This document shows positions 557 to 20,365 of a stretch of 23,792 bases of DNA, piece by piece (within the stretch, counting starts at the first letter, position 1; each line of letters opens with the position of its first letter). This stretch comes from Streptomyces roseochromogenus subsp. oscitans DS 12.976. GTDB taxonomy: Bacteria; Actinomycetota; Actinomycetes; Streptomycetales; Streptomycetaceae. Below the pieces are notes generated by a model that made no database searches, was not told where the DNA came from, and was given only the letters and a program-made list of their open reading frames with translations. The translations under genes were made by a program, and so were the position numbers. The stretch is taken from NCBI RefSeq assembly GCF_000497445.1, contig NZ_CM002285.1, positions 7,282,353 through 7,306,144 on the forward strand. Direction: 5' to 3'.

Positions 557-1387
557 TCAGCGTGCGGAGAAGCCGCCATCCACAGTGATCACAGCCCCGG
601 TCACTTGTCGGCTCTCGTCCGAGGCCAGCCAGAGTGCAGAGCCGGCGACGTCTTCGGGTTCGACAAGAGCGTTCATGGGCTGGTCTCGCATGAAGATCTG
701 TTCGTGCTCGTCGACGGGCACGTCCAGGGACCGGGCGATCTCGGCAAGCATGCGTCCTTCGACATGGGGGGCGTCGCGGACGGAGCCTGGGCACAGGGCG
801 TTGACGCGGACCTTGTGGGGTCCGTAGTCCAGGGCGGCCGCTTTGGTGAGACCGACGAGTCCGTGCTTGGCGGCGACGTATCCGGCGAAGTGGCGGTAGC
901 CGACCAGGCCGGCGGTTGAGGCGATGTTGATGATGCTGCCCGTCCTCCGCCGGGCCATGAGTCCGCCGACGCAGCGGATCAGCCGCCAGGCTCCGGAGAG
1001 GTCGACATCGAGCATGAGCTGCCATTCGTCCTCCTCGATCTCGTGCGCGGCCTTGCCCGACGGCGCGGCGATGCCGGCGTTGTTGACGAGGACGTCGAGG
1101 TGCCCGAACCGCGCCGCCGCGCTGTCCACCGCATCCTGGACTTGGTCGAGGTGCCGTATGTCTGTGTGGTGGACGAGTACCGCGGCGCCTTCCTTGCGGC
1201 ACAGGTCTGCCGTGTGTTCGAGCTGGCTGGCCGACCCCAGGGGATACGGCACGCCGGGCAGGCTCTCGGCCACGTCGAGGAGGGCGAGGTCGGCGCCTTC
1301 CCGTGCGAAGGCAACGGCTGTTGCCCTGCCGAGACCTCGGGCGGCGCCGGTGATCAGAGCGGTCTTGCCGTTGAGTCGGCCGGTCAT
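557..1387 (-). CDS. SDR-family oxidoreductase, mycofactocin-coupled-like
   Basis: A 276-residue classical short-chain dehydrogenase/reductase: cofactor motif TGAARGLG (13-20), NNAG near 100, catalytic Ser157, Tyr170 and Lys174 (YVAAK), and a C-terminal ITVDGGFSAR. A stretch after strand 2 reads PGVPYPLGSASQLEHTAD. It resembles the PYPLATPEDLAETV insertion of SDRs that use tightly bound NAD with mycofactocin as electron acceptor (TIGR03971-like, from memory). It probably oxidises or reduces a hydroxyl/keto group on a precursor or on the peptide; the substrate cannot be read from sequence. The ATG at 1387 overlaps the thioesterase stop as ATGA, so translation is coupled. It is the last gene of the operon. 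Confidence 0.85.
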   Translation of the reverse strand: MTGRLNGKTALITGAARGLGRATAVAFAREGADLALLDVAESLPGVPYPLGSASQLEHTADLCRKEGAAVLVHHTDIRHLDQVQDAVDSAAARFGHLDVLVNNAGIAAPSGKAAHEIEEDEWQLMLDVDLSGAWRLIRCVGGLMARRRTGSIINIASTAGLVGYRHFAGYVAAKHGLVGLTKAAALDYGPHKVRVNALCPGSVRDAPHVEGRMLAEIARSLDVPVDEHEQIFMRDQPMNALVEPEDVAGSALWLASDESRQVTGAVITVDGGFSAR

Positions 1388-2109
1388 CGCGGGGCTGCTC
1401 CGAGGTCATGTGCGTCCAGCTGGGCGGCGATGAGGCGGAGAACGCCGGGGCCCTGGTCGGTGAGGTACATGTGTCCGCCGGGGAGTTCGGCGGTGGTGAA
1501 GGCGGCGGTGGTGGCGTCGGCCCACTGAGCCGTCTGGGCTGCGTCCACGAGTTCGTCGTCGGTTCCCCGCAGGGCTGTGATCGGTGCCTTCAGGGGTGCG
1601 TCGGTGGAGGGCCGGTAGTTCTCGTGCATCTCGACGTCGGCCCGCAGGACGGGCAGGAGGAGTTCGAGCATCTCGGGGTTCTGCATCGCCTCGTGGGCGT
1701 AGCCGGCGAAGCCGCGGACGCGGGTGAGGAACTCTTCGTCGCTCAGTCCGGTGGCCCTGTTGGTGCGTGGTTTCCAGGGTCCGGCTGAGCCGCTGACGAC
1801 CAGGCGTTCCAGAGGGACCCGTCCTCGGTCGGCGATCCGGTGAGCGAGTTCGTAGGCGAGGACCGCGCCGAGGCTGTGGCCGAAGACGACGGCGCGTTCG
1901 GCGGTCTCCACCTCGGCCGCCACCCGGTCCCAGGCCTCGTCGATGGCGGCGGAGGCGTCAGTGACGGGGTCGTCGAGGAAGCGCTCTTCGCGGCCCGGTA
2001 GTTGGACGGCAGTGATGCGGATGCCGTCTGGTGCGTCCTTCTGCCACTTCTTGAAGAAGGAGGCGCCTGCTCCGGCGAAGGGCAGACAGATCAGTGCGGT
2101 CGGCTGCAT
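1384..2109 (-). CDS. Type II thioesterase (NRPS editing, alpha/beta hydrolase)
   Basis: A 241-residue alpha/beta hydrolase of normal type II thioesterase length. N-terminal CLPFAGAGASFFKKW is the family's oxyanion-region signature. The nucleophile is Ser79 in GHSLG, the acid is probably an Asp in GTDDELV (about 185), and His213 lies in PGGHMYL. Such enzymes hydrolyse wrong or stalled acyl groups from carrier-protein phosphopantetheine arms; some shuttle aminoacyl groups between carrier proteins (SyrC-like role). The start is ATG 2109, preceded by GAAAGGG. The frame stays open far upstream, but that sequence overlaps the P450 gene and is not thioesterase-like. It lies 50 bp after the P450 stop and overlaps the SDR by 4 bp. 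Confidence 0.93.
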   Translation of the reverse strand: MQPTALICLPFAGAGASFFKKWQKDAPDGIRITAVQLPGREERFLDDPVTDASAAIDEAWDRVAAEVETAERAVVFGHSLGAVLAYELAHRIADRGRVPLERLVVSGSAGPWKPRTNRATGLSDEEFLTRVRGFAGYAHEAMQNPEMLELLLPVLRADVEMHENYRPSTDAPLKAPITALRGTDDELVDAAQTAQWADATTAAFTTAELPGGHMYLTDQGPGVLRLIAAQLDAHDLGAAPR

Positions 2110-2159: not shown

Positions 2160-3305
2160 TCAGCGCTGCGGCAGCGCTGCCGCAGCGGGCGCTTGCAGGT
2201 CGAGGACGAGGCGGTCGAAGCCGCGGAAGGTCTTGTTCACGCGCCAGTTCACCTCGCTGACCGTGGCGTTGGGGAAGCGGCGGGCGAACAGGGTGAGGAG
2301 TCTGGCCACGGTCAGCCGGGCGAGCGGAGCCCCGACGCAGTAGTGCATGCCGAATCCGAAGGCGATGTGGTCGGACCGGTTCTGGTCGGTGCCCTGTTCG
2401 AGCGGCGTTGAAGGGGTGGAGTGGTCGAAGAGGTCCCGGCCGGTGAGGGAGACGAGGACGACGTCGTCCTTGGCGATGGCGTGGCCGGACAGGGTCGTGT
2501 CCTGTGTGGCGAGGCGGGCAACGTGTCCGAGCGGGGCATACAGCTCCAGGACGCGTTCGACGACGGCCTTGGCGGGTTCGTCGTCGGTGGCGGCCGCGAT
2601 GGTGTGGGTCAGGTTGTTGCCGAGCATGTGCCAGAGGGCGAGCCCGATCATGCCGGCGGTGGTTTCCAGGCCGCCGAACATCACCATGGACGAGGTCGCG
2701 AGCCGGTCCCACTCGCTGCCCTGGGCCTTGTTCCAGATGGACTCGCCGTCTTCGGCGGGCGCGTTCGTGATGAAGTCGGCCATCTCGCGCAGGGCGGCTT
2801 GGGCGGCACGCGCGTAGTCGGGTCGGTACGAGACGGCGAGGAAGTCGGCAAGGGGCCGAGCCCAGGTGTGGAGGAGGTCTCCCTGGTCGGCGGGGAGTCC
2901 CAGCAGCAGGGCGATGGTGCGCGCGGAGATGTTGTCCGCGAGGTCCGGCATGGCGTCGTGCCGCGAGGAGCGACCGAACTTGTCCAGTTCCTCTTCGAGG
3001 ATGACATGGATGGTCTCCTCGAGCCGGCGGATGCGCCGGGGGGAGAACATCGGCTGGATGGCACGCCGGGCCTCGGTGTGTTTCTCGCCGTCGAGGAGGA
3101 CGAACCAACGGCGCATGGTCTCGATGAGGTGGGCGCACTCCCCGTGCATGTCCGCGGGAAGGTAGCTGAGGTTGACGGCGTCCAGGGTCTCGGACGACAG
3201 GTGCGGGTCCTGGAGCGCAGCCTGTACCTGGTCCCGGCCCCAGACGACCCAGCAGCCGAGGTCCTCGTAGTAGCGGACCGATGAGGTCGCTTCTTCGGTG
3301 GTCAC
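2160..3305 (-). CDS. Cytochrome P450 with altered ExxR motif
   Basis: 381 residues, a soluble bacterial class I P450 needing ferredoxin partners that are not in this window. The heme-thiolate loop is FGFGMHYCVGAPLAR with Cys323 as ligand. The I-helix oxygen-activation motif is GGLETTAG (about 211-218), and the C-helix has HTEARRAIQ. In the K helix the expected ExxR is absent: VVERVLEL at 248-255 puts Arg251 and Glu254 where Glu and Arg normally sit. The usual FxPxR meander is also unrecognisable. GTG 3305 overlaps the exporter stop as GTGA. By context it oxidises a carrier-bound amino acid or the released peptide; this is inferred. Confidence 0.92.
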   Translation of the reverse strand: MTTEEATSSVRYYEDLGCWVVWGRDQVQAALQDPHLSSETLDAVNLSYLPADMHGECAHLIETMRRWFVLLDGEKHTEARRAIQPMFSPRRIRRLEETIHVILEEELDKFGRSSRHDAMPDLADNISARTIALLLGLPADQGDLLHTWARPLADFLAVSYRPDYARAAQAALREMADFITNAPAEDGESIWNKAQGSEWDRLATSSMVMFGGLETTAGMIGLALWHMLGNNLTHTIAAATDDEPAKAVVERVLELYAPLGHVARLATQDTTLSGHAIAKDDVVLVSLTGRDLFDHSTPSTPLEQGTDQNRSDHIAFGFGMHYCVGAPLARLTVARLLTLFARRFPNATVSEVNWRVNKTFRGFDRLVLDLQAPAAAALPQR

Positions 3306-4636
3306 GCGGGTTCCTTCTCCTGGCTGTCGGTGTCGGTGTCGGTGTCGGGCTCGGGCCGTGATGTGGTGGGCAGGTCTCGCTGGGAGCGCATGGGGCCGAG
3401 GGCGAGGACCAACCCGCAGGGGGCGAGAACGGCGGTCATGATCCACATGGCGGGCCGGGGGCCGAGTGCGTCGCCCAGGAAGCCGCCGATCAGTGCGCCG
3501 AGCGGGATGGTGCTGTGGTTGAGGACCATCGTGGTGGCAACGACACGGCCGAGGATGCGCGGTGGGCAGTAGGTCTGGCGGAAGGAGGCCAGGACGACGT
3601 TGCAGGTGACGATGCCGAAGCCGAGGACGAAGGTGCCGAGGGCGAAGAACGCCAGGCCTGCGCCTGATGTCGTGAGGGGGAGGAGCAGGGCGAAGGGCCC
3701 GGTGAGCAGCTGGGTGGCGAGCATGCCGCGGGCGGTGCCGAAGCGCCGCCCGACGGCGGGGGCGACGGAGGCTCCGGCGATGCCGCCGATGCTGCCGGCG
3801 GTGAGGAGCACGCCGACGGTCGCGGTGCTGACGCCGACGGTGCGTACGAGGAAGACGACTTGCACGGCCTGGTATCCCAGGAGCGCGAAGTTGACCAGCG
3901 CGCCATAGGTGACGATGGGGCGCAGGTAGCGGTCGCTGAACACGAAGCGCAGGCCTTCGGCGATCTGCCGGCTCAGGGGGATGGGTTGGTCGGGCTGTTC
4001 GGGCTTCGTCTCTCTGGCCTTGATACCGGCGAGGCAGAGTGCGGACAGGACGAAGGTGAGGGCGTCGAGGAGGAGGCCGGTGACGGCTCCGAAGACCTGG
4101 CTGATCAGACCGGCCAGACCTTTGCCGACCACGTCGGTGGCGGATTCGCTGGCGCTGATGCGGGCGTTGCCCTCCTGGAGGTCGGCCTCGGTGAGCACGG
4201 TCGGCAGGTAGCTGTGCACGGCGGTGCGGACGAAGACGGCTGCGATGCCGCAGATCAGCACCACAGCGAGGAGGTGGCTGAAGGTGAGCGCGTCGAGCCA
4301 GGCCGCGACCGGGACCGTGGCGTAGAGGACGGCGGAGAGGACGGCGCACGCGATGAGCAGGGGGCGGCGCCGCATCCGGTCCACCCAGGCTCCGGCGGGC
4401 AGTCCGACCAGGAGCCAGGGCAGCCAGACCGCGGCGCTGAGCACGCCCACCGCGGTGGCGCTGCTGCCGAGGGTGACGACGGCGATGAGGGGGACGGCCA
4501 CCGTGGTGACGCTGTTGCCGATGCCGCGTACGGTCTCGCCGATCCACAGCAGCCTGAAGTCCCGCTGGCCGAGGACCCCCCGTTTTCTGCGCGTGCCGGT
4601 GTCGTCGTCGGCGTCGTCGGCGTTCTTCGTCTCCAC
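3302..4636 (-). CDS. MFS transporter (EntS/MFS_3-like drug exporter)
   Basis: 444 residues with about 12 predicted membrane segments. The MFS motif A after TM2 reads GAWVDRMRRRPLL. TMs fall at roughly 30-55, 60-82, 90-112, 118-140, 165-200 (two), 240-265, 275-298, 305-325, 330-355, 365-390 and 395-415. Overall pattern resembles EntS-type proton-driven exporters that sit in peptide clusters and export product, probably giving self-protection. Both termini are acidic: an N-terminal DADDDTG and a C-terminal DTDTDTD encoded by a hexanucleotide repeat. GTG 4636 follows AGAAGG 15 bp after the preceding stop; the gene's TGA overlaps the P450 start. Confidence 0.9.
   Translation of the reverse strand: METKNADDADDDTGTRRKRGVLGQRDFRLLWIGETVRGIGNSVTTVAVPLIAVVTLGSSATAVGVLSAAVWLPWLLVGLPAGAWVDRMRRRPLLIACAVLSAVLYATVPVAAWLDALTFSHLLAVVLICGIAAVFVRTAVHSYLPTVLTEADLQEGNARISASESATDVVGKGLAGLISQVFGAVTGLLLDALTFVLSALCLAGIKARETKPEQPDQPIPLSRQIAEGLRFVFSDRYLRPIVTYGALVNFALLGYQAVQVVFLVRTVGVSTATVGVLLTAGSIGGIAGASVAPAVGRRFGTARGMLATQLLTGPFALLLPLTTSGAGLAFFALGTFVLGFGIVTCNVVLASFRQTYCPPRILGRVVATTMVLNHSTIPLGALIGGFLGDALGPRPAMWIMTAVLAPCGLVLALGPMRSQRDLPTTSRPEPDTDTDTDSQEKEPA
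3325..3348. repeat. Hexanucleotide tandem repeat in exporter 3' end
   Basis: Four perfect copies of TGTCGG (plus strand) encode the DTDTDTD run near the exporter's C-terminus. The unit is in frame, so copy-number change would only alter tail length. Confidence 0.9.
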
Positions 4637-4651
4637 GCTGATGACCTTCTG

Positions 4652-5710
4652 CTAGGGGCGGGTGACCGCGTCGGGGAAGGCGGGGTGCTCGTTGAGCCGG
4701 GACATGAGCGGGATGTCCCGGATGTCGTCGTGGGACAGGACCCACATGAGGAACCGCTCGATGCCCATGCCGAAACCGGAGGTGACCATGGGGAGGTCCT
4801 TGCGCATGCGGACGTACCAGGCGTACTCCTGCTCGTTGACGTCGTGCAGAGCCATCGACTTGCGCAGCAGTTCGATGTCCGAGTGGCGTTCGCCGCCTCC
4901 CACTGTCTCGCCGAGCCCGAAGAACAGGTCGGCGTTGCGGGCGGTGCGTCCGGCGTCGTCACCGAACGCCTGGTAGAAGGGCACGGACAGCAAGTCGAAG
5001 TGGTCGACCCAGACGAACTCGTCGACGCGCTGCATGAGCAATCGCTCGCCCTTGCGGGTGAGCGAGCGCCATGAACCCTCGTCGCGGACGCAGCCGTCCA
5101 CGTCACCCACGATCCGCACGGCCTGGTCGAAGGTGATGCGTTCGAAGGGGGCGCCTCGGGCGGCCATGCGCTCGACGTGGGCGGTGGTGCCCCGGAGCCG
5201 GGCGATGCGGTCGCCGTGTTCGTCCAGGACCGCGGTGGCGAGCGCCTTCACATAGCCGTCGACGTAGCTGATCATGTCGTCGAGGCTGCCGGGGACCTCG
5301 GCCTCGCTGTGCGTGTACTGGTTGAGGTGGGTCTCGTCGGGGGTCTCGCCGCGGTATGAGGGCAGGATGCTGTAGCAGCCGCCCGGCGAGAGCCGGCAGC
5401 CGTACTCCAGGGCGAACTGCATGCTGTCGGGCAGGAAGGTGTCCACGCCGAGGACGGTCACGGGCACGGGCTCGGAGTCGCTGCCGAAGGCGTTCGGGCA
5501 GGTCACGGTCCGGGTCGTGAGCGGGAAGGGCAGATTCTTCAGGCCTTTGGAGCGCGCGTAGTGTCCGGTGGTCCGCTCGACGACGTCGTAGAGGTCGGCG
5601 ACGAGGCCGTACCACGGTGAGCGCAGGACCGTGACGAAGGCGTCCGGGGCATTGCTGGAGTGGACGGCGGGGGGCTTCAGGAGGGTGAGGGACTGGGTCT
5701 GCTGCAACAT
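4652..5710 (-). CDS. AsnRS/AspRS-like class II aminoacyl-tRNA synthetase paralogue without anticodon domain
   Basis: 352 residues forming only a class II synthetase catalytic core. Motif 2 is CYSILPSYRGETPDETH, with Arg120 as the ATP-contacting Arg, followed by QYTHSEAE. Motif 3 is GFGMGIERFLMW, with Arg319, then IRDIPLMSR, closely like AsnRS/AspRS. The N-terminal OB-fold that reads the anticodon is missing, so it is unlikely to be a normal tRNA synthetase. Related stand-alone cores are known as archaeal-type asparagine synthetases (AsnRS paralogues); SerRS-like cores are known that load carrier proteins. Here it may make or activate Asn, Asp or a relative for the pathway. ATG 5710 has AGGAGAG upstream; the frame continues upstream into the oxidase gene without synthetase similarity. 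Confidence 0.8.
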   Translation of the reverse strand: MLQQTQSLTLLKPPAVHSSNAPDAFVTVLRSPWYGLVADLYDVVERTTGHYARSKGLKNLPFPLTTRTVTCPNAFGSDSEPVPVTVLGVDTFLPDSMQFALEYGCRLSPGGCYSILPSYRGETPDETHLNQYTHSEAEVPGSLDDMISYVDGYVKALATAVLDEHGDRIARLRGTTAHVERMAARGAPFERITFDQAVRIVGDVDGCVRDEGSWRSLTRKGERLLMQRVDEFVWVDHFDLLSVPFYQAFGDDAGRTARNADLFFGLGETVGGGERHSDIELLRKSMALHDVNEQEYAWYVRMRKDLPMVTSGFGMGIERFLMWVLSHDDIRDIPLMSRLNEHPAFPDAVTRP

Positions 5711-5739: not shown

Positions 5740-7125
5740 TCAGGACGGCGTGGGCGGGATGTTCTGGTTGCGCCGGAAGGTGTTGGCGGGGTCGTATGCC
5801 TTCTTCACGGCGGCCAGGCGGGCATGGCGATGTGTGCCGTAGACCTCGAGGACTCGCCCGGGCGCCTCGTCGTGGAGGTAGTTGACGTAGGCGCCGCCGG
5901 TGCACATCGGCGCGAGGCGCTCGATGCTGCGCCGGGGCCAGGCGATGTTCGGCGTGTCCTGCTGCGGGTCCGTCCACTGGGACGAGGCGGTGAAGATGTA
6001 GGGCGCGCCGCGGCTCGGGAACGCCGAATCCTCTTCAGGGACGTGCTCGATGGCGCCGCGCAGGTACTCGAAGTCGATGGAGGACAGGGCGGAGGGGATC
6101 TCCTGTGCGGCGGCGATGAACGCGGCGGCCGTCTCGGGGGTGAGGTCGGTGGGGTAGCAGGATTTGGTGAAGTAGCGGTGGCCGGCGGGTTCGCCGTGGT
6201 CCCCCAGGCTCTGGAGCTCCGCGTACGGCATGCGTCGCACGAGGGTGGCGGCGGGGCCGGTGGTGTCGAAGAGCCGCGCGGTGTGGGCCGGTCCGTCGTC
6301 CGGGTCGCCGAACCAGGCGGCGGTGAGGAACAGGGCGGGCCGGCCATGGAGTTCGGCGGGGATCCAGTCCGCGGTGCCCGCGTGCTTGAGGGCTCCGACG
6401 GTGTGCAGGTCGTCGGGCTGGCTGGGGGCGAAGTCCCGGTAGGCGGCCAGCGCGTCCTGCGCAGCGGCCAGGGGGTAGACGCCGGTGTGGTAGTGGACGG
6501 GGCCGACTGGTCGCAGGCGGAGGGTGAAGCGGGTGACGATGCCGAAGTTGCCGCCGCCTCCGCGCAGAGCCCACAGCAGGTCGGCGTGGTCGTCCTCGGT
6601 GGCCTCGACGACCGAGCCGTCCGCCAGGACCACTTCGGCAGCCAGGAGGTGGTCGCAGGTCAGACCCCATTTGCGGGCGAGCCATCCGTAGCCGCCGCCG
6701 AGGGTGAGGCCGCCCAGGCCGGTGTGGGAGACCACGCCGGCCGGGCAGGCGAGATCGTGCGGTGTGGTGGCGGCGTCCAGATCGGCGAGCAGGCAGCCGC
6801 CGCCGGCCTGCGCGACGCGGGCGGCGTGGTCGACGGTGACGGTCCGCAGGGGTGACAGATCGATCATGAGGGTGCCGTCGGCGACGGCGGTGCCGGCGAC
6901 ATTGTGGCCGCCGCCCCTCACGGTGATCTCCAGGCCGGTGCGGGCGGCGTAGCGCAGAGCCTCGGAGACCTCCTCCGGGCTGCTGCACGGGGCGATGAAG
7001 GCGGGCCGGCGGTCGTGCATGCCGTTCCAGATGCGGCGGGCCGTGTCGTAGCCGGGCGCGCCTGGCCGGAGCCAGCGGCCGGGCACCTGAAGGTCGGGGC
7101 GGTCGTGGAGGGGCACGTGGGTCAC
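5740..7125 (-). CDS. FAD-dependent BBE-like oxidase
   Basis: 461 residues of the berberine-bridge-enzyme/6-hydroxy-D-nicotine oxidase family. The FAD (PCMH) domain carries [10 protein letters not shown], with His74 as the expected covalent FAD attachment, and [23 protein letters not shown]. The Cys that forms a second FAD bond in bicovalent members is not at its place (VVSHTG instead of a CPTVG-like motif), so single attachment is expected. The C-terminal BBE segment [15 protein letters not shown] is complete. Such enzymes use O2 to oxidise C-N or C-O bonds, or to desaturate or cyclise peptides. It probably tailors the NRPS product; the substrate is unknown. GTG 7125 overlaps the NRPS stop as GTGA. 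Confidence 0.93.
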
Positions 7126-10100
7126 TCGGTTCCTTGGATGAGGAGGGGCGCGAGAACGTCGGCCATGCGCTGGCGGGGCACTTCCGCCAGCACTTCTTCA
7201 TGGCTGCAGTCCAGGGGGTGCTCCTGGAGGCGTTCGACGTAGGGCTCCCAGGCAGAGGGGCGGGGGCCGTCGGGCGTGCGGCCCCGGGTGGCGGTGAAGT
7301 GGAGGACCGTGCCGTCGAACCGTTCGGGCGCGTACGCCGAGGTGAGCCGGCTGGCGTTGACGCCGACCTCCACCAGTCGAGTGAACCGCTCGTGGTCCAG
7401 AGGCACATGGGCCGCCGCTTCGGCGCGGAGCGCAGTCAGCAGCGACGCGAAGTCCCCGTCATGGCCGGCGGGGTCGTGCGGCCGCGCCACGAGGGTGGTG
7501 AGCAGGGCGAACTCGTCCCACTGCTCGGGGGTGGCCATGTCGGGGTACGGCCAGGTCGCTGGGGGATATGCGTCCACCAGCGCCAGCAGCTCCACCTCGG
7601 CTCCGGCCATGCGCAGCCGCGTGGCGACCGCGTGGGCGATGTTGCCGCCGAGAGACCAGCCGAGCAGCCGGTACGGGCCCTGGGGCTGGACCTGCTGGAT
7701 CTCCTGCACCATGAGGTCGGTGATCTCGCCGAAACCGGCGGGCCGTTCCGCCCCGTCCGCAAGGCCCGGCGCCTGGAGGCCGTACACCGGCACCTCGGCG
7801 GGGAGCAGACGGGCGAGAGCGAGGTAGCTCCAGGCAAGCCCGGTCGCGGGATGGACGCAGAAGAGCGGGGGGCGGCCGGTGGCCGGGCGCAGGGGCAGCA
7901 GGACGTCGAAGTCGCCGCCGCCGATGGTGCCTTCGAGCAGTCCGCGGGGTGTGGGTGTCTGGAACAGGCTCCTGACCGACACGTCGATGGCCAGGTCGGC
8001 CCGGATGCGGCTGGCCAGCCGCATGGCGAGCAGGGAGTGCCCGCCCAGGGCGAAGAAGTCGTCCTCGGCGTCCACGTCGGGCAGGCCGAGGACCTGGGCG
8101 AACAGCGCGCATACCCTCTCCTCGCGCGGGCTGCGCGCGGCCGCGGGGGCCGTTCGGGAGGGCAGCTCCGGTGCGGGCAGGGCCTTGCGGTCGAGCTTGC
8201 CGTTGACGGTCAGTGGCAACTCGTCCAGCAGGACCACGGCGGGGACCATGTACGCGGGCAGGGCGGCCGCCACCCGGCGGCGCAACGCGTCGGGCGAAAG
8301 GTCGTGTTCGCGGCCCCGGTCGGGGACGACGTAGGCCACCAGGCGTTTGTCGCCGGGCTGGTCCTCGCGCACGAGCACGGTGCTGTGCCCGACGGCATCG
8401 TCGGCGTCGATGACGGCCTGGACCTCGCCCGGCTCGACCCGGAAGCCGCGGATCTTCACCTGGTGGTCCACGCGGCCCACGAACTCCAGGACACCGTGAT
8501 GGTTCCAGCGTGCCAGGTCGCCCGTGCGGTACATCCGCTCGCCCGGGTCTCCGTAGGGGTCGGCGATGAACCGCTCAGCGGTCAGCCCGGGGTTGCGGGC
8601 GTAGCCACGGGCGAGGCCGGCCCCGGCCACGTAGAGCTCGCCGGTGACGCCGGCGGGCAGCAGGCGCAGGTGCTCGTCCAGCACATAGGCGCGGGTGTTG
8701 GCCAGCAGTGTGCCGATCGGGGCGCGCGAGCCGCCGGCCAGGGAGCCGGGTTCGATGACGGCGATCGACACGTCGTCGGAGCACTCGGCTGGGCCGTAGA
8801 CGTTGGCCAGGGGGATGCCTGGATGCCGCTTGTACCAGCGGGCGACGAGGTCGGGTGGCAGTTCCTCGCCATGGACGAGCATCCAGCGCAGCCCGGCGAG
8901 GAACTCGACGCTGGTGTCGTCGTCGTCCCACAGGTCGAGCACGGCCCGCAGGACGGCGGGCACGATCTGGAGCACCGTGACTCCGTGTGCGGCGACGGCG
9001 CGGGCCATGTCCAGGGGGTCGCGGGTGGTGTCGTCGTCGAAGACGTGGACGCGGCCGCCGGCCAAGAAGAGGGTGAGGGTCTGCCAGATGGAGACGTCGA
9101 AGGTCAGCGGGGCGTTGAAGGCGATGGTGTCGTGTTCGTCGAGTCCGTAGAGTGCGACGACTGCGCGCAGGTGGTTCGACAGGCCGCGGTGCGGCACCAG
9201 GACACCCTTGGGGCGGCCGGTGGAGCCGGAGGTGAACACGGAGTAGGCGATCGCCTCCGGCTCCACCGTGACCGGGGGTGGTGCGGTCGCCGTGTCGTCG
9301 ACGGGCACCAGCGTGACCGCGTGGTCGCCGCACGCGGCGACGATCTCGCCGGCCTGGCCGAGGAGATCGGGCGCGGCCAGCAGGAAGCGGACATCGGCGT
9401 CCCGCAGCATCCCGGCGGCCCGGGCGACCGGCGTTCCCGGGTCGAGCGGCATGTAGCCGCCGCCGGTCCCCAGCGCGCCGAGCGCGGCGGTCACGAACCA
9501 GGTGCTGCGCGCGGACAGCACGGCGACCAGGGTGTCCACCCCTGCCCCCGCGGCCGCGAGGGACCCGGCTACCGCTCCGGCGCGGTGGGCGACATCGGCA
9601 TACGTGAGGGTGCCGTGGACATCGGACAGGGCGGGTGCGCCAGGGCGGGTGGTGGCCAGGGTCCGCACGCGGCCGGGAAGGTCGATGGGCTGCTCCGGCG
9701 ACGGCAGGCCGTTCCAGTCGGCGAGCATCAGCTGCCTCTCGTCGTCGTCCAGGAGGTCGAAGGATCCGATGGGCCGGTCGGGGTCCGCGACAGCGTGCCG
9801 GAGGACCTTCACCAGGCGCCTGCTCATGGCGGCCACGGTCTTGTGGTCGAACAGTTCGGTGGCGTACTCGATCACCATGTGCAGGCCGGCGGGCCGGCCC
9901 TCGTGGTCGCGACGGTTCGCGAAGTCGATGGACAGGTCGAACTTCGCGGTATCGGTGGTGAGCGGAAGCAGCTCCGCCCTGGTGCCGGCGAAGCGTGGGG
10001 CGCCGTCGACGAAGCCGTCGTCGAGAGCGAGGAAGACCTGGAACAGCGGGTGCCAGGCCAGGGAGCGTTCGGGCCGGGTCTCCTCGACGATCCGGTCGAA

Positions 10101-13100
10101 GGGCACGTCCTGGTGCGCGAACGCCGCAAGGTCGGTGGCACGGACCCGGGCGAGCAGCTCGGCGAAGGTGGGATCGCCCGCCGTGCTCGTCCGCAGCACG
10201 AGCGTGTTCACGAAGAAGCCGACCAGATCGTCGAGTCCGGTCTCCGACCGTCCGGCGACCACGGTGCCCAAGGGGATGTCGTCGCCGGTGCCCGACCGCT
10301 TCAGCATGGTGGCGACCGCGCTCTGGAGCAGCATGAACAGCGTGGTGCCGGTGCGGCGCGCCAGATCAAGGACCTGCTGGTGCAGGTCGGCATCGAGCGT
10401 GAGCTCCACCGTGGCGCCCTGGTGGCCGGCCACGGCACGCCGCGGTCGGTCGAAGGGAAGGTCGAGCTGCTGCGGTGCTCCGTCGAGGGCCTCGCGCCAG
10501 AACGCGAGCTGTCCGGCCTGCACGCTGTGCGCGTCGCCGGCGTCCCCGAGCAGGGTGCGCTGCCACAGCGTGTAGTCGGCGTACTGCACCGGCAACGGCC
10601 GGAACGCGGGGGCGGCGCCGTTGCTGCGGCCCGCATAGGCCTCGGCCAGGTCGCTGAGCAGCGGACGCATGGACAGACCGTCACCGGCGATGTGGTGCAG
10701 CAGGACCAGCAGAACGTGCTCGTCGTCGCTCCCGGCGACCTTGAACAGGGTGCACCGCAGCGGAACGTCCGAGCCGATGTCGAAGATGTGCCGGGCGGCC
10801 CGGCCGATCTCGTCGTCCAGCGCGTCCCGGTCGACGACAGTGGTCGTGAGGACCGGCGGGGCGGCGTCCGGGGAGAGGATGACCTGATGTGCTTCGCCGC
10901 CGGACTCGGGGAACACCGTGCGGAGCGTCTCGTGACGGCGCATCACGTCGCCGAGCGCCTCACGCAGGGCTTCCGCGTCGATGGCGCCGTGCAGGCGGAG
11001 GGCGACCGGAATGTTGTAGGCGGGGCTCGGCCCGTCGATGCGGCTGATGAGCCACAGGCGCTGCTGGGCGAAGGACAGCGGTACCTGTTCGGGCCGTTCG
11101 TCCGCGGTCAGTTCAGGCCGGCGGTGCGCGGCACCGCTGCCGGCCGGCGTCAGCAGGCGATCCATTCCGGCGGGGCTGGGGGCACTGAAGAACGAACCGA
11201 GGTCGACATCGGTGTCGAGAGCCGTGCGGACGCGGCTGACAAGCCGCATGGCGAGCAGGGAGTGGCCGCCCAGGGCGAAGAAGTCGTCCTCGACGCCCAC
11301 GTGCGGCCTGCCGAGGACCTCGGCGAACAGCGAGCAAAGGATCTCCTGGCGTGGAGTGCGCCCCGGCGCCGACCCGGCTCCGGCCGTCCACTCGGGCTGC
11401 GGGAGCGCGTGGCGGTCCAGCTTCCCGTTCACCGTCAGGGGCAGCTCGTCCAGGACGACGACGGCGGGGAGCAGATAGGCGGGTAGCCGGTCCCGCAGGC
11501 GGTCGCCCAGCGCATCCGTGTCAGCTTGGGACGTGCCCTTGGCCGGAACGACGTAGGCCACCAGGCGTTTGTCGCCCGGCCGGTCCTCCCGGACGATGAC
11601 GGCAGCTCGCGCTACCGCCGCGTCGGCCTCGACGGCTGCCTGGACCTCGCCGGGTTCGACGCGGAACCCGCGGATCTTCACCTGTCCGTCGGCACGGCCG
11701 GCGAACTCCAGTTCGCCTTGGTTGTTCCAGCGGGCGAGGTCGCCGGTGCGGTACATCCGCGCGCCCGGCTCCCCGAACGGGTCGGCGACGAACCGCTCCG
11801 CCGTCAGCCCCGGGAGCCCGAGGTATCCGCGGGCCAGCCCGGCACCCGCCACGTACAGTTCCCCGATGGCGCCGAGCGGTACCGGCTGCAGCCTGGAGTC
11901 GAGGACGTAGGCCCGCATACCGTCGAGCGGGCTCCCGATGGGCAGCGCGTCGGGGACCGGCTCATCGATGTCCAGGATCCAGCGTGCGGCGAAGGTGGTG
12001 GTCTCGGTGGGGCCGTATCCGTTCACGAACCGCACGGCGGGGAAGCGCTCGCGGAGCTTGCGGACCGCTGCCGCGGACACGGCTTCGCCTCCTGCCCAGA
12101 TCTCCCGGAGCGTGCCGAGCGTGGCGGGAGCCTCGTCGGTGACGAGTGCGAAGAGCGCCGCGGTGAGCCACACCGCGCTCACCTGGCCGGACTCGATGGC
12201 CGCGGCGAGGGCGGCGACGTCCAGCTCACCGGGCGGGGCGATGACGCAGCAGCCGCCGTTCAGCAGCGGCGCCCACAGCTCGTAGGTCGAGGCGTCGAAC
12301 GCCTGTGAGGAATGGAGGAGCACTCTGCGGTGGGCCGGGCCGCGGAACTCGCTGTCGGTGGCGAGGGCGGTGATGTCGGCGTGGGTGACGGCCACGCCCT
12401 TGGGCACGCCCGTGGATCCGGAGGTGAACATCACATAGGCCAGGTGGTCGGCATCCGTCGTGCCCGGCAGCTGCGGCCCACCCGTATCGGCGGCGGGACC
12501 GGGGGCGACCACGACGCGCTCCATGCGGTGACCGAAGGCCATCGTGGACGAGGCGTCGTCCACGAGCAGGACCCGGGCCCGGGTGATCTCGGCGATCTCG
12601 CTCAGGCGGGCTGCCGGATAGCGGCGGTCCAGCGGGACGTAGGCGCCGCCCGCTTTGAGGACGGCCAGCAGGGCCACGATCAGCTCGGGGGAGCGCTCCA
12701 TGAGGACGGCCACCGGGGCTTCCGGCCCGACCCCCAGCCCCGCGAGGCGGCGGGCCAGCGCGGTGGAACGGGCGTCGAGCTCCGCGTATGTGATCTCCTG
12801 ACCGGCGCTGAACAGGGCCGGAGCATGAGGAGTGCGGGAGACCTGGGCGGCGAAGAGATCCGGAACCGTGGCGCGAGCACCGCCCTCGGCACCGGCACCG
12901 AGGGCGAGCGTGCGGGCCCGGTCCTCTGCGTCGACCAGATCGAGCTCCCCGATACGCCGGCCCGGGTCGGCGGTCGCCTCGTCGAGGACACGGAGGATCG
13001 TGTGGACGAGCCGCTGGGCGCTCTCGTGGTCGAACAGGTCCGTGGAGTACTCGAGGAAGCCCGCAAGCCCCTGCGGCCGGCCGTTCGCCGTGAGTTCCCG

Positions 13101-14585
13101 GACGTTGAGGACCAGGTCGAACTTGGCCACCTGGGTGGGCACGTCGAACAGGGCGGCGTGCGGCAGACCCGGCAGGTCGCCCAGGCCCACCGACTGGCCG
13201 ATGAAGGCGAGCGCCACCTGGATGAGGGGGTTCGCAGAGCGTGAACGCTCTGGGTTCACCTCTTCGACCACCTGGTCGAACAGGACATCCTGGTGCGCGT
13301 AGGCAGCCAGGTCCGTGGTGCGGACGCGGTCGAGGAGCTCCGCGAAGGTGGGATCGCCCGAGGTGTCGGTACGCAGCACCAACGTGTTGACGAAGAAGCC
13401 GACCAGGTCGTTCAGGGCGTCGTCGGAACGGCCGGCCACGGGTGAACCGATCGGGACGTCCTCGCCCGCCCCGTAGCGGGTGAGGACGGTGGCCAGCGCG
13501 GCCTGGAGGACCATGAAGAGCGTTGCCTGGTGCTCTTGGGCAACGGTGAGCAGCCGGGTGTGGAGATCGCTTTCAACGGCGAAGTCGATACCGGCGCCGT
13601 GGTGTGAGGGGACGGCGGGCCGCGGCCGGTCCAACGGCAGCGCGATCCGGTCGGGAAGGCCTGCGAGAGCGTCGCGCCAGAAGGCGAGCTGCTTGCGCAG
13701 GGCCCCGTCGTCGCCGGCGTCGTCGGACTGGGTGCGGTGCTGCCAGGTGCTGAACTGCGCGTAGGTGACCGGGAGCGGGGAGAACACCGGTGCCCGGCCG
13801 TCGAGTCGGGCGGCGTAGGCGCCTGCCAGGTCGCGCAGCAGTGGGCCTACGGACCAGCCGTCGGCGGCGATGTGATGGAACACCAGCACAAGGACGTGCT
13901 CCGGCTCTTCCTGGGCCGAGGTGTCCGTGAGAGTGAACAGCCAGGTCCGCAGCGGCACATCACGGGTGATGTCGATGGCCTCGCCGGTCGCCCCGAGCAT
14001 CGCCGCCGTCAGCTCGGCCGAGGGAACACGCCGGTGCTGGAGGGCGGGCGGTGCGTCGGCGGCCGGGCGGACGTGCTGGAACGGCACGCCCTCTTCCTGG
14101 GGGAACACGGTGCGCAGCGGTTCGTGGCGGGCCACGACGTCGCCGAGGGCAGCCCGCAAGGCCGCGGTGTCGACCGTGCCCTGCAGCCGCAGCCCGATCG
14201 GCATGTTGTAGCGGGGACTGGGGCCCTCGAGCTGAGCGAGGAACCACAGGCGCCGCTGCGCCGGTGACAGGGGGATCCGCTGCGGGACGACCGTGTCGGC
14301 CAGGGCCGGGACCTTCGGCGCGGGCGGGGCCGCGGCCTGGGCCAGGGCCCGGGCGACGCCGGCCGGTGTGGGAGCCTCGAAGAACTTGCGCAGGTGTATC
14401 CCGTGCCCCACGGTCTGCCGGATGCGGCTCATCAGCCGCATGGCGAGCAGCGAGTCGCCGCCGGCCTCGAAGAAGTTCTCGTCAACGGCGGTCTCCGGCC
14501 TACCCAGCACTTCGGCGAACAGCTTGCTGAGGGTCTCTTCCTGTGCGGTACGGGGCGCGGGGCCCATGGAGGGCGTGGAAGACAC
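7122..14585 (-). CDS. NRPS, T-C-A-T-C-A-T-TE (two full modules plus A-less carrier)
   Basis: 2487 residues. T1 has Ser45 in GGDSLL and no A domain before it. C1 (about 100-540) has HHIAADG at 237-243. A1 (about 575-1060) has core [10 protein letters not shown] near 720 and A10 Lys1055. T2 has Ser1109 (GGHSLL). C2 (about 1160-1600) has HHIAGDG at 1297-1303. A2 (about 1640-2135) has [10 protein letters not shown] at 1785 and Lys2130. T3 has Ser2184. TE has Ser2311 in GWSLGG and His2462 in DCSHEE. The residues I read at GrsA specificity positions give A1 DAYWWGGTFK (Val-like) and A2 DVWQLHVDDK (no match known to me). No epimerisation domain is present. It should receive the starter on T1, add two residues and release the peptide. 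GTG 14585 has AAGGGGAG upstream; ATG 14567 is a possible alternative. Confidence 0.97.
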
Positions 14586-14621: not shown

Positions 14622-15869
14622 TCAGTGGAGGTCAGAGGTGAAGTGGGCCAGGGTGTCCCGGAAGGCGTCCCGCAGCTGGCGGGCGTCCTGCTCGGTGAAG
14701 GCGTCCGCCGACGCGCGCAGGGTTCCGCGGATGTTGCCGACGGTGCCCCAGCCGAACTCCCACAGGGCGGGGAAGTTGGCCCAGCGGGGCGGGACAGGCA
14801 CGTGCGTGGTGCGCAGGGCCGGCAAGCGCAGCCGGGGAACCACCACGTCGACGTTGACCAGGTGCAGGAACAACGGGGCCGCTCCGTGTGCCCCGTGCGC
14901 GGCCGCGGCGCGCAGGATGCGCGAGTAGGGGACGTCCTTGTGGTCGAGGGCGGCGTCGATCGCCTGGGCGTGCCGCTCGATGACCAGGGTGGGCGGCAGG
15001 TGGTCCGGCCACAGGGTGCGCACCGGGAGGGTGTTGAGCAGGGGGCCGATGGTGTTCTGCAGGTCCTGGCTGTCGCGGAGTGCGGTGGGCATGCCCACGA
15101 CGACGTCGTGGTCGGGCCCGCTCCCGGCGACGGCCGCGCTCACCACGGTGAACAGGACGACGGCGGGCGACACCTGACAGGACCGGGAGAGCCGGCGCAC
15201 GGCCCGGGTCTCGGCCGCGCCGAGCGGCAGGTCGTGAGCGAGGAAGGTGCCGCGTTCGGCTTCGCCTGGCGGGCTGGTGCGAGGCGCTGCGCCGGGGCGC
15301 ACACCATGGAGACGGTCCTTCCACCAGGCGGTGTCCACCGGGTGCGCGTCCTCGCGTTCGGCGTGGTCGAAGAAGTCCGGTGCCGTGCCGGTGAAATCGG
15401 GGCCGCCGATCTCCGCGGCGTACGCCTGGCCGAGGTCGTCGGCCAGGAGGGCGAGGGACCAGCTGTCGCCGGCCACATGGTGCACGGCGAGAGCCAGATG
15501 GTGGACGCCGTCTGACGGGTCGGAGACGAGGCGCGCCCTCACGGGGGGCTCGACGGTCAGGTCGAACGGTGTGTCCCACCAGTCGGTGAGCAGGGTCAGC
15601 ACGTCATCGGTGGCCGGCGCCGAGCAAGTACGGGTCAGGGCAGGCAGCGACGCGGACGGGCCCAGGGGGACGGCTGTGCCGTCCTGGAACGTCGCGGCAA
15701 GCACCGGGTGGCGTCGGATGACCCGGTGCAGTGCCCGCTCCAGCGCCGCCGCTTCGAGCGGGCCCACGATCCGGAAGCAGAGCGGCATCGTGTACATCGG
15801 CCGGTCCGCGAGCATTTCGTGGACCAGCATGGACTGCTGCATGTCCGACAGGGGACGGAAGGAATACAT
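14622..15869 (-). CDS. Stand-alone NRPS condensation protein
   Basis: 415 residues forming a single condensation domain with no A or T domain. The N-terminus RPLSDMQQSMLVHEML matches C1. The active site is HHVAGDSW at 130-137: both His and the Asp are kept, but the usual Gly after Asp is Ser. DLGQAYAAEIGGP and IGPLLNTLPVRT match later C motifs. A free C domain must meet donor and acceptor carriers on other proteins. Its place between the A-MT-T gene and the T1-initiated NRPS suggests that it joins the residue on that carrier to the residue on T1. ATG 15869 follows GAGGGG, 3 bp after the preceding stop. Confidence 0.92.
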   Translation of the reverse strand: MYSFRPLSDMQQSMLVHEMLADRPMYTMPLCFRIVGPLEAAALERALHRVIRRHPVLAATFQDGTAVPLGPSASLPALTRTCSAPATDDVLTLLTDWWDTPFDLTVEPPVRARLVSDPSDGVHHLALAVHHVAGDSWSLALLADDLGQAYAAEIGGPDFTGTAPDFFDHAEREDAHPVDTAWWKDRLHGVRPGAAPRTSPPGEAERGTFLAHDLPLGAAETRAVRRLSRSCQVSPAVVLFTVVSAAVAGSGPDHDVVVGMPTALRDSQDLQNTIGPLLNTLPVRTLWPDHLPPTLVIERHAQAIDAALDHKDVPYSRILRAAAAHGAHGAAPLFLHLVNVDVVVPRLRLPALRTTHVPVPPRWANFPALWEFGWGTVGNIRGTLRASADAFTEQDARQLRDAFRDTLAHFTSDLH

Positions 15870-15872
15870 GGC

Positions 15873-16283
15873 TCAGCCCCTCACAACAGGGGCGTTCCGG
15901 AGGACCTCGGCGAGCCATGCGGCGAAGGTCGGCGCCTTGAGGCAGGAGCTGGGGGTGGTCTCGGTGCCGACGATGCCCCGGGCCCGGGCGGTGACGCGCA
16001 GGGCGAGCAGTGAGTGCCCGCCCAGGCTGAGGAAGTCGTCGTCGTCCCCGACCGCGTCGACGGCGAGCACCTCGCGCCACAGGTCCCTGAGCTGTTCCTC
16101 GACGCCTGCGGTGGTGTCCGCCGCGGTGGGCGCGGGGATGGCGGGTGGGGGCGGCAGCTGCAGCTTGGCGACCTTGCCGTTGGGAAGCCGGGGCAGGTCT
16201 TCGACGAAGACCACCTGGGACGGCTGCATGGCGGAGGGCAGATGGGCTGCCGCGTGCTGGCGGATCTGACGGGCCGTCAGCAG
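15873..16283 (-). CDS. A-domain tail (A10) plus carrier protein, frame-shifted from upstream gene
   Basis: This frame resumes the upstream adenylation domain: LLTARQIRQHAAAHLP, VVFVEDLPRLPNGKVAKLQL (A10 with the catalytic Lys) and then a carrier domain with [15 protein letters not shown]. The frame is open upstream, but the family-like sequence begins only near 16283. No ATG, GTG or TTG fits before ATG 16229, which would omit the first part of the A subdomain. In an intact version this and the preceding gene would be one A-MT-T protein of about 890 residues. As given, either a base is missing from the sequence near the GC-rich CCCGG repeats, or the module is truly split or broken. The 5' limit is where similarity starts, not a proven start codon. 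Confidence 0.75.
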   Translation of the reverse strand: MLTARQIRQHAAAHLPSAMQPSQVVFVEDLPRLPNGKVAKLQLPPPPAIPAPTAADTTAGVEEQLRDLWREVLAVDAVGDDDDFLSLGGHSLLALRVTARARGIVGTETTPSSCLKAPTFAAWLAEVLRNAPVVRG

Positions 16284-18532
16284 GCCCGGCCGGGCCGGGC
16301 ATCGGATGCGGCCGGTACGGCAGTGCCCGCGCCTGTCTCGGTGGGCTCGCGGGTGGCGTACACGTAGGTGACATCGGCCGCGGTGTCGACGTTCCAGTCG
16401 TCGATCTCGTGCAGGCTGAAGCCGGCGTTCGTGAGGATCTTCCGGATCTCCGGGCCCACGGCGCTGGCGCGCTCGACCTCCAGGCACACCTGGCCCACCC
16501 GATGCCAGTGCTCGGGCCGCAGACCGCGCAGCACGTCAAGTTCGGCACCCTCGGTGTTGATCTTCAGAAGGTCGACGCGGTCGAGTGCGAAGCGGTCGAA
16601 GATGCTGGACAGGTCGGTGGTCGCGACCTGGTGCAGAGTTGCGGCCAGGCGGCGCTCGGTGTCCCGGCGCAGCTGGGCGAGTTCGGCCTCGTCCACTGTG
16701 CCGGTGTCGCCGGTGGCGGCCGCGGTGCTGCGGAAGTGCGACTCCACGAGATCCGCAGCCGCCTCCTCACGGTCCGTGCCCAGTCCGGAGAGGTAGCTGA
16801 GCTGAGGGAACGAGGTGAGGGTCGCAGTTCCGGAACGGTCGGTGACCGCCATGGGGACGACGTCGGCCGTCACCGCGTTCAGCTCCAGATTCGCCTGCAG
16901 GTAGGGCAGCGTGTCCGGGTTCGGCTCGACAGCGACGACGCGGACACCGTCGGCCTGGCGGGCTGCCCACAGGGAGAACAGGCCGATGTTGGCGCCGACA
17001 TCGACGATGACCGCGTCGGGGCCGATGCGCAGGCCGAAGCGGGCGTACTCGTCCTCTTCGAAGATCTGCCGGTACAGGAACAGCGCCTCGTCGGGCGACG
17101 GAGTGGCCACGGCCAGGCCGTTGGGCAGCTCGATACGGCTCAGGCCGCCGACGACGGGCGAGTGGGCGCGCCTGGCGGCGACGTAGGCGACGAGACGCAC
17201 GCCGTCGCTGCCGTCGGGGACGCCCACGACGGCGGCATCGTGCACCTTCGGGTGGTGGCGGAGGACCGTGCCGACCTCTTCGGGTTCCACTCGGACGCCG
17301 CGGACCTTGACCTGGTCGTCGATCCGGCCGCGGAACTCCAGGTAGCCGGCCTCGGCCTGCCTGATTCTGTCCCCGGTTCGGTACATCAGGGTGCCGTCGC
17401 AGGCGAACGGGTCGGGGCGGAAGCGCTCGGCGGTCAGGGCGTCGTCATCGAGGTAGCCCCCGCCCACGGCGATGCCGGAGATCCACAGTTCCCCGGTCTC
17501 ACCCGCGGGCACTGCTGTCAGGTCCTCGTCGAGGATGCGGCACACGACGTTGTCGATGGGCCGCCCGACCGGCGCGATGTCCCCGTCGAAGGGCTCACTG
17601 CAGTCCCAGTAGGTGGCGTTCACCGAGGTTTCGGTGGGGCCGTAGCCGTTGTACAGCTTGGCGGGCAGCAGATCGCGGAACCGCCGGACGAGCGTCATGT
17701 CGAGCGCTTCGCCGCCACAGAAGACGCGGCGCAGCGAGGTGCAGTAGGCGAGTTCGGCTTCGTCGACGACGTACCGGAGGACGGACGGGACGAAGTGGGC
17801 GGTGGTGACCTCGGCTTCCTGGATGAGGCGGACGATGCCGAGGCTGTCGAACTGCAGTCCCGGCGGGGCGATGACCAGGGTGCCACCGGCGATCAGCGGC
17901 GAGAAAATCTCGTGGATCGCCGCGTCGAAGGCGTGGGACGCCTTGTGCAGGACACGGTCGTCGTCCGCCAGGCGGTAGTGCCGGTGACCCCACTCCAGGC
18001 GGTTGCACAGCCCGGCGTGGTGGAGCCGGACGCCCTTCGGCCGGCCGGTGGAGCCGGAGGTGAACAGGATCATCGCCGTCTGCTCGCCCGCGGGGCGCTC
18101 GCGCCATGTGGCGGCGGCGAGGCTCTCCACATCCCCCTGGCGGCACCGGGTGTCCAGAGCCAGCCATGGCGCGGGGCCGAGCGCGGCGAGGTGGTTGTCC
18201 GCGTCGCAGAGGATCACTCGCGGTTCGGACACGGCGACCACCTGGAGCAGGCGGTCGCTGGGGAACTCGGGGTCCATGGGCACGGCGACGGCGCCGATGG
18301 TCATGACGGCGATGAGCGCGCTCACATAGCCGGCGGAACGCGGCAGGTAGAGGGCGACGTGATCGCCCGGTTCGACACCGGCGCTGCGCAGTTGCCGGGC
18401 GACTGCCGCGATCTGGTCCCACAGTTCGCGGTACGACAGCTCGCCGTCGGCGCTGAGGACGGCGGGAGTTCCCTCGGGTACGGCGTCGGGCGTGCACAGG
18501 AGGTCCGGGACGTAGGTCGGCTGCATCGTCAC
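16277..18532 (-). CDS. Adenylation domain interrupted by FkbM-family methyltransferase
   Basis: 751 residues. The A-domain core runs from about 10 to 420: [10 protein letters not shown] at 158-167, YGPTETS, MYRTGD, and A8 QVKVRGVRVEPEE around Lys409. Then comes an inserted methyltransferase (about 470-735) with DVGANIGLFSLWA from Asp511, VVAVEPNP, and KINTEGAELDVLRG near 657. These are FkbM-family SAM motifs, more often linked to O-methylation. The residues I read at specificity positions give DAHHFGGVN plus the A10 Lys in the next frame; I do not know this code. Insertion between A8 and A10 matches known interrupted A domains. The protein stops at 16277 before A10. GTG 18532 overlaps the preceding stop (GTGA) and has GAGAAG upstream; ATG 18526 is the alternative. 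Confidence 0.9.
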   Translation of the reverse strand: MTMQPTYVPDLLCTPDAVPEGTPAVLSADGELSYRELWDQIAAVARQLRSAGVEPGDHVALYLPRSAGYVSALIAVMTIGAVAVPMDPEFPSDRLLQVVAVSEPRVILCDADNHLAALGPAPWLALDTRCRQGDVESLAAATWRERPAGEQTAMILFTSGSTGRPKGVRLHHAGLCNRLEWGHRHYRLADDDRVLHKASHAFDAAIHEIFSPLIAGGTLVIAPPGLQFDSLGIVRLIQEAEVTTAHFVPSVLRYVVDEAELAYCTSLRRVFCGGEALDMTLVRRFRDLLPAKLYNGYGPTETSVNATYWDCSEPFDGDIAPVGRPIDNVVCRILDEDLTAVPAGETGELWISGIAVGGGYLDDDALTAERFRPDPFACDGTLMYRTGDRIRQAEAGYLEFRGRIDDQVKVRGVRVEPEEVGTVLRHHPKVHDAAVVGVPDGSDGVRLVAYVAARRAHSPVVGGLSRIELPNGLAVATPSPDEALFLYRQIFEEDEYARFGLRIGPDAVIVDVGANIGLFSLWAARQADGVRVVAVEPNPDTLPYLQANLELNAVTADVVPMAVTDRSGTATLTSFPQLSYLSGLGTDREEAAADLVESHFRSTAAATGDTGTVDEAELAQLRRDTERRLAATLHQVATTDLSSIFDRFALDRVDLLKINTEGAELDVLRGLRPEHWHRVGQVCLEVERASAVGPEIRKILTNAGFSLHEIDDWNVDTAADVTYVYATREPTETGAGTAVPAASDARPGRAC

Positions 18533-20232: not shown

Positions 20233-20365
20233 CGCCGGAGTTCTCTCTTCGAGGCCCTAGTGACGTGCCTATGGCCTGTCCGGACGGGGGCAGATCCGAA
20301 TAATTTGCAGAACCGTCAGAGTTACGTACCTGGTGAAATTCCGGCTTATCTCGGGGGATTCAGCC

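Follow-up and report, generated by a model that had tools for sequence, protein, structure and literature searches.

An AsnRS-derived catalytic core in a Streptomyces NRPS operon and its association with a BBE-type oxidase and one adenylation-domain code

The protein of 352 aa encoded at 4652..5710 on the minus strand of the window, i.e., the whole stretch of 23,792 nucleotides of Streptomyces roseochromogenus subsp. oscitans DS 12.976 analysed here, is well supported as the catalytic core of an asparaginyl-tRNA synthetase (AsnRS) that has been recruited into secondary metabolism. Its gene recurs in related NRPS clusters in the company of a BBE-type FAD oxidase and of an adenylation (A) domain having the code DVWQLHVDD, an association that tentatively points to a role in the supply of a peptide building block.

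The operon and its genes

The operon, which is read from 19575 down to 557 on the minus strand, opens with a class I methyltransferase (18529..19575; Pfam Methyltransf_11) and continues with an A1 domain (code DAHHFGGVN) joined to an FkbM-type methyltransferase (16277..18532; identified by motif reading and purpose-built HMMs, the FkbM name being given by sequence reading), an A-domain tail with a T domain (15873..16229), a stand-alone condensation (C) domain of 415 aa (14622..15869; Pfam Condensation) and an NRPS of 2487 aa with the order T-C-A2-T-C-A3-T-TE (7122..14585), in which A2 has the code DAYWWGGTF and A3 (~8205..9716) the code DVWQLHVDD. The fusion of an A domain with an FkbM-type methyltransferase (18532-16277) recurs in S. 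lavendulae, ISL-1, G080 and G862.

Directly upstream of the focal gene lies the BBE-type FAD oxidase of 461 aa (5740..7125; Pfam FAD_binding_4 and BBE), and downstream of it follow an MFS exporter (3302..4636; Pfam MFS_1, TIGR00900 being below its cut-off), a cytochrome P450 (2160..3305; Pfam p450), a thioesterase that is of type II by size and place (1384..2109; Pfam Thioesterase) and an SDR oxidoreductase (557..1387; Pfam adh_short_C2, TIGR03971 being below its cut-off), all of them on the minus strand; the placement of the gene between an oxidase and an exporter within an operon, claimed in an earlier note on this DNA, is thus borne out. A divergent NRPS gene on the plus strand (20333..23302) consists of an N-terminal region without recognised domain, an A domain with the Thr-like code DFWSIGMVH and a T domain. 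The big NRPS begins with a T domain lacking an A domain of its own (14585-14300), located after the stand-alone C domain (15869-14622), for which, to judge by position, this A-less T would be the acceptor; the plus-strand A-T gene (20333-23302) may be its loader in trans.

Architecture and family scores of the focal protein

Pfam, the structure model and an alignment of 83 rows concur in indicating that the class II catalytic core is complete and that motifs 2 and 3 are kept, without loss of any motif residue, as the earlier note had maintained. The same note had described the protein as devoid of an anticodon-binding domain and, indeed, no N-terminal OB-fold domain of this kind is found in the structure model of the 352 aa, whose predicted residues 9-342 superpose on residues 109-434 of 1x54, the AsnRS of P. 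horikoshii. The score obtained with TIGR00457, the model of canonical AsnRS, is 116.4 bits and lies below the curated cut-off of 342.6. The highest family scores are those of the “asparagine synthetase A” models (PRK06462 / AS-AR type), the NCBIfam models of this name yielding 207.7, 170, 60.8 and 52.9 bits against cut-offs of 322, 389, 368 and 309, all of which are missed.

Active site and pocket

As read from the 83 aligned rows, R120 of motif 2, the AsnRS-type E136, E138, E268, R275 and R319 of motif 3 are invariant (83/83), H276 is found in 77 and D125, located in the motif 2 loop, in 81 of the rows; E136 and R275 have counterparts in AsnRS. At the positions occupied by Lys and Asp in the two AspRS-type proteins that the host genome encodes, the focal protein carries L101 and E136, AsnRS likewise lacking this Lys and this Asp, and its pocket is AsnRS-like rather than AspRS-like. 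The second, shorter AspRS-type host gene (G000:C1:5599292-5600575; L145) is matched by the AsnRS model over nearly its full length, with a score below cut-off. Signatures specific to the family are G76-S77-D78, D95-S96, Q98, D125, P-F-Y at 244-246, and G273 and R275 together with H276, and the motif 2 loop reads PDET in the focal protein as opposed to SRTRR in human AsnRS. By analogy with asparagine synthetases, the α-ammonium group of a flipped Asp could be bound by D78 and D95, two additional acidic residues.

Distribution and family tree

The focal gene is accessory in its genus, a relative at E ≤ 1e-30 being present in 20 of 392 genomes; at E ≤ 1e-60 the number of genomes having one is 4 of 394 for the class, 8 of 250 for the family of G612 and 10 of 297 for that of K. 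banguiense. In the host genome no AsnRS scores above the TIGR00457 cut-off. Two protein searches gave totals of 824 (E ≤ 1e-3) and of at least 1,470 (E ≤ 1e-20, among 7,997 candidates) and, since these totals may include canonical AsnRS, only the 239 distinct proteins listed (P0001-P0239) are counted as family. None of the 239 has an anticodon-binding domain among its precomputed Pfam domains, and a full-length AsnRS is thus not among the relatives listed; given also the missing anticodon domain and the retained motif residues, none of the three findings named in the earlier note as refuting its interpretation has turned up. Many close relatives bear the NCBI label “amino acid--tRNA ligase-related protein”. 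The intact core, the lack of an anticodon domain, the accessory character of the gene and its occurrence in NRPS clusters fit the proposal of the earlier note that an amino-acid-activating enzyme was here derived from translation.

In the family tree the focal group (24 rows) lies on one side of a branch with a support of 89/100, the other side comprising the 59 remaining rows and the outgroup. The loci compared are a sample of 80 kept out of 177 encoded relatives; gene calls in relatives are composition-based, and the denominators of the neighbour counts retain L062 and L077, in which the focal gene is unclustered. S. lavendulae CCM 3239 has the gene and its surroundings twice (L003, L004), near both ends of the chromosome record and in opposite orientation, and the second copy (L004) is excluded from these counts.

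Association with the BBE oxidase and the DVWQLHVDD adenylation domain

Sixteen loci of the focal clade are of NRPS type. The exact code DVWQLHVDD is present in 12 of them (the window, G080, S. lavendulae, ISL-1, G862, LS1784, A. wychmicini, G294, K. banguiense, A. pretoriensis, L012 and G612), sister codes (DVWEINADD, DIWEMTADD) occur in three others (K. aridum, L015 and L016), and at the NRPS-type locus of A. vancoresmycina no such A domain occurs within the ~80 kb read; over the whole clade, 12 of 20 loci carry the exact code. The code letters were assigned from motif alignments at what we take to be the GrsA positions, the tenth letter K being added by script rather than read. The DVWQLHVDD domains form a single clade with a support of 0.998 in a tree built without G862 and G612. 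A BBE gene directly precedes the focal gene in 15 of the 16 NRPS-type loci, the exception being G612 (L153/L154), which has both the focal gene and the DVWQLHVDD domain and no adjoining BBE gene.

The control consisted of a scan of 392 genus genomes for the motif AEC[ST]DDV, by which only A domains bearing it are detected. Thirteen matches were obtained: four are chance occurrences outside A domains (L138, L139, L141, L142), six belong to sister codes (DIWELTADD and alike) and three to the exact code, the genomes of the last three (G000, G080 and G294) being precisely those which, among the 392, have an NRPS-type focal locus. The clade has two more representatives in this sample, namely G030 and G157, which agree in hit positions and scores with the genomes of L009 and L011, both named Streptomyces and having ATP-grasp genes and no NRPS at the locus, and the next relatives among the sampled genus genomes, from G074 onward, belong to the wider family. 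G862 and G612, which were examined after the idea had been formed, both carry the code; since G862 shares the layout of the window and G612 belongs to the same genus as the genome of L012, they represent confirmations and not independent lineages.

Codes such as DIWELTADDK or DVWQLHVDDK were not found in the literature searched. Linear gramicidin synthetase A, which came up as the solved structure nearest to A3, was discarded because its score sums two A domains and is thus uninformative on specificity.

The YbaK branch and the wider family

Four members of the focal clade (L009, L011, L013 and L017) have an ATP-grasp gene nearby and no NRPS. Close relatives, including P0045 and P0046, that are 63-65% identical to the focal protein have a YbaK-type deacylase directly upstream, and the YbaK-type segments of the four loci are 63-100% identical to that of P0045, being fused in frame in L011 (547 aa) and L017 (545 aa) and apparently lying in another frame in L009 and L013. 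The presence beside the core of a YbaK-type deacylase, acting on aminoacyl-tRNA, makes a tRNA-linked role conceivable for this branch.

The 64 loci outside the focal clade (L019-L082), which make up the wider family, span Actinomycetota, Bacillota and candidate phyla. Their neighbours within the regions retrieved, clustered and named from one representative per cluster, include an S66 peptidase in 49/64 loci, the methyltransferases MTa and MTb in 26/64 and 17/64, respectively, and an ATP-grasp enzyme in 18/64. Furthermore, clusters of aminoacyl-tRNA synthetase (aaRS) type, assigned by Pfam as G/H/P/S/T or HisRS class II type, MetRS and LeuRS, are found in 19/64 loci, some of these genes being perhaps housekeeping; the finer names ProRS and GlyRS rest on reading, and AlaRSc (below cut-off) as well as c12 and c26 (no Pfam hit) are excluded from the count. 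None of the MTa, MTb and S66 cluster members occurs in the 15 focal-clade loci examined for neighbours. In Clostridia an amidohydrolase-family gene is found right after the focal homologue (L026 11009-12151; a cluster of 4 loci), and genes of amidohydrolase-like look, by reading only, precede the BBE gene in Kibdelosporangium.

The S66 family includes the microcin C immunity protein MccF, and that the S66 peptidase could be an immunity gene in the wider family is offered as an idea only. A more far-reaching proposition, which we consider rather unlikely to hold as a whole, is that the AsnRS-derived core is the hallmark of a large and little-described class of biosynthetic gene clusters, spread over Actinomycetota, Bacillota and candidate phyla, where it would make an amide-type warhead amino acid for NRPS or ATP-grasp peptides; the S66 peptidase and the spare aaRS would confer immunity, the products would carry aaRS inhibitors, and the clade of the window would be the branch that moved to NRPS, accompanied by a BBE oxidase and by an A domain dedicated to it.

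Possible function

The explanation that we favor, with a confidence somewhat short of even, is that the focal enzyme forms an amide and thereby contributes a building block. The carboxylate of an Asp/Asn-type amino acid, presumably free rather than part of a peptide, would be adenylated with ATP, and ammonia or an amine, as a small nitrogen nucleophile, would receive the activated amino acid. Acting with the BBE oxidase, the enzyme would in this way produce or finish a single non-proteinogenic residue, to be loaded into the peptide by the DVWQLHVDD domain. This explanation draws on the intact core, the AsnRS-like pocket, the asparagine synthetase A scores, the constancy of the BBE gene (15/16) and of the code (12/16) and the precedent of SlgZ discussed below. 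Further support is seen in the fact that the gene appears to follow a particular residue and not a particular arrangement of the NRPS, and the proximity of ATP-grasp genes instead of an NRPS in L009, L011, L013 and L017 is what would be expected if the enzyme supplied its unit to different peptide makers. On the other hand, the A domain was not found in the ~80 kb read of A. vancoresmycina, the four ATP-grasp loci show no NRPS, G612 has no BBE gene next to the focal gene, the scores stay below every asparagine synthetase A cut-off, the pocket is like that of an enzyme, AsnRS, whose substrate is Asn and not Asp, and related clusters could co-inherit the focal gene and the A domain in the absence of a direct chemical link.

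Instead of a free amino acid, the substrate could be a carboxylate of the carrier-bound or released peptide, amidated as a late tailoring step. This may hold for SlgZ, which would act with SlgM on the methylaspartate-derived part of streptolydigin, both proteins being assigned to tetramic acid biosynthesis in the accessible part of PMC5357945, and the frequency of MTa and MTb near members of the wider family would agree with it. However, these methyltransferases were not found in the focal-clade loci examined, and the tie to one A domain across differing NRPS architectures suits a building block better, so that late tailoring appears unlikely. Lower still is the probability that the protein is a tRNA-dependent enzyme, charging or using a tRNA and passing the amino acid on to the product, even though aaRS-like, tRNA-dependent enzymes of this kind (AcmF and SbzA) exist in natural product pathways according to the portion of the review PMC12945691 that was available, and a YbaK-type deacylase directly precedes the core in four members of the clade and is fused to it in two. 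Against this reading, the protein lacks an anticodon domain, and its motif 2 loop has PDET instead of the SRTRR of human AsnRS, with D125 nearly invariant.

A carrier-loading function like that of aa:carrier-protein ligases, directed at the A-less T with which the big NRPS begins, is suggested by the position of this T after the stand-alone C domain and by the occurrence of a T-C without A domain in 11 of the 16 NRPS-type loci (K. aridum being the least certain). Yet no A-less T is seen in the region read at K. banguiense, A. pretoriensis, L012 (contig end) and G612, A. vancoresmycina entering neither count, and 8 of the 11 T-C loci have a stand-alone A-T with the Thr-like code DFWS(I/V)GMVH, which could load in trans and is thus the more natural donor for the A-less T. 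These data make carrier loading about as improbable as the tRNA-dependent role and, of the three mechanisms offered by the earlier note, it is the one that is weakened, the asparagine-synthetase-like, amide-forming mechanism being the best supported. A role in self-protection, whereby the protein would bind or destroy the product or a toxic adenylate and so shield the host aaRS, might be read into the S66 peptidases and extra aaRS-type genes of the wider family, which could themselves be immunity genes; this function is rendered highly improbable by the lack of the S66 cluster in the focal-clade loci, the conserved active site and the fact that the gene tracks biosynthetic partners. Finally, homology and the names given by some sources would make the protein an ordinary second AsnRS, an identity that has hardly any probability left and was rejected in view of the missing anticodon domain, the accessory distribution, the location in an NRPS operon and the scan of the host genome, which detected no AsnRS above cut-off.

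Translation enzymes turned into small-molecule ligases are few and are valued as amide-forming tools, and a family that recurs with a single NRPS specificity code offers a direct route to the substrate of its enzyme. If the pattern of S66 peptidase and spare aaRS means that the products are directed against aaRS, the gene would also be a probe for antibiotics of this type.

Relation to known systems

The presence of an AsnRS-like protein in a peptide cluster is already known from SlgZ, the original paper on which is reportedly in J Bacteriol 2011; the earlier claim that such a use in a peptide pathway would be unusual is tempered by this precedent and by the many relatives. SlgZ of Streptomyces lydicus, described as asparaginyl-tRNA synthetase-like in the accessible part of PMC5357945, is stated there to take part with SlgM in tetramic acid biosynthesis, in the streptolydigin pathway. 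Compared by description, both genes lie inside an NRPS or NRPS/PKS cluster, but SlgZ is named together with the methyltransferase SlgM whereas the usual partner of the focal gene is the BBE oxidase. A class I methyltransferase does open the operon of the window, at a distance from the focal gene, and no counterpart of it was seen next to the focal genes of relatives such as G294. Glutamate mutase (PF06368), taken as a lead to a SlgZ-type cluster, is encoded in 22 of 51 genome entries (some duplicated) and, where both genes could be placed (L031 and L079 being unplaced), lies on another contig or hundreds of kb away from the focal homologue. The literature searched gave no other names for AsnRS-like proteins, and a match in PMC9321520 was discarded, being a reference on inhibitors of worm AsnRS and not on the AsnRS-like family considered here. 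In the available portion of the review PMC12945691, which does not contain the term AsnRS, the AlaRS-like AcmF and the IleRS-like SbzA are described as aminoacyl-tRNA-dependent enzymes of natural product clusters. They share with the focal protein the aaRS-like nature and the type of genomic setting, but are kin of other aaRSs and depend on aminoacyl-tRNA.

The aa:carrier-protein ligases are SerRS-like and consist of a class II aaRS core that is truncated and has no function on tRNA. The truncated class II core is common to them and to the focal protein, which belongs to another aaRS lineage and in 4 of 16 loci has no A-less carrier in sight. The archaeal asparagine synthetase A (AS-AR; PDB 3p8t, 3reu, 3rex, 3rl6) is likewise an AsnRS-like core without anticodon domain; the focal protein is 18% identical to it and differs by missing the curated cut-offs and by being encoded in an NRPS operon. 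With canonical AsnRS (P. horikoshii 1x54), the protein has in common the catalytic fold and catalytic residues, while it lacks the N-terminal anticodon domain and displays motifs of its own, namely GSD (76-78), DSMQF, GERH and VPFYQ.
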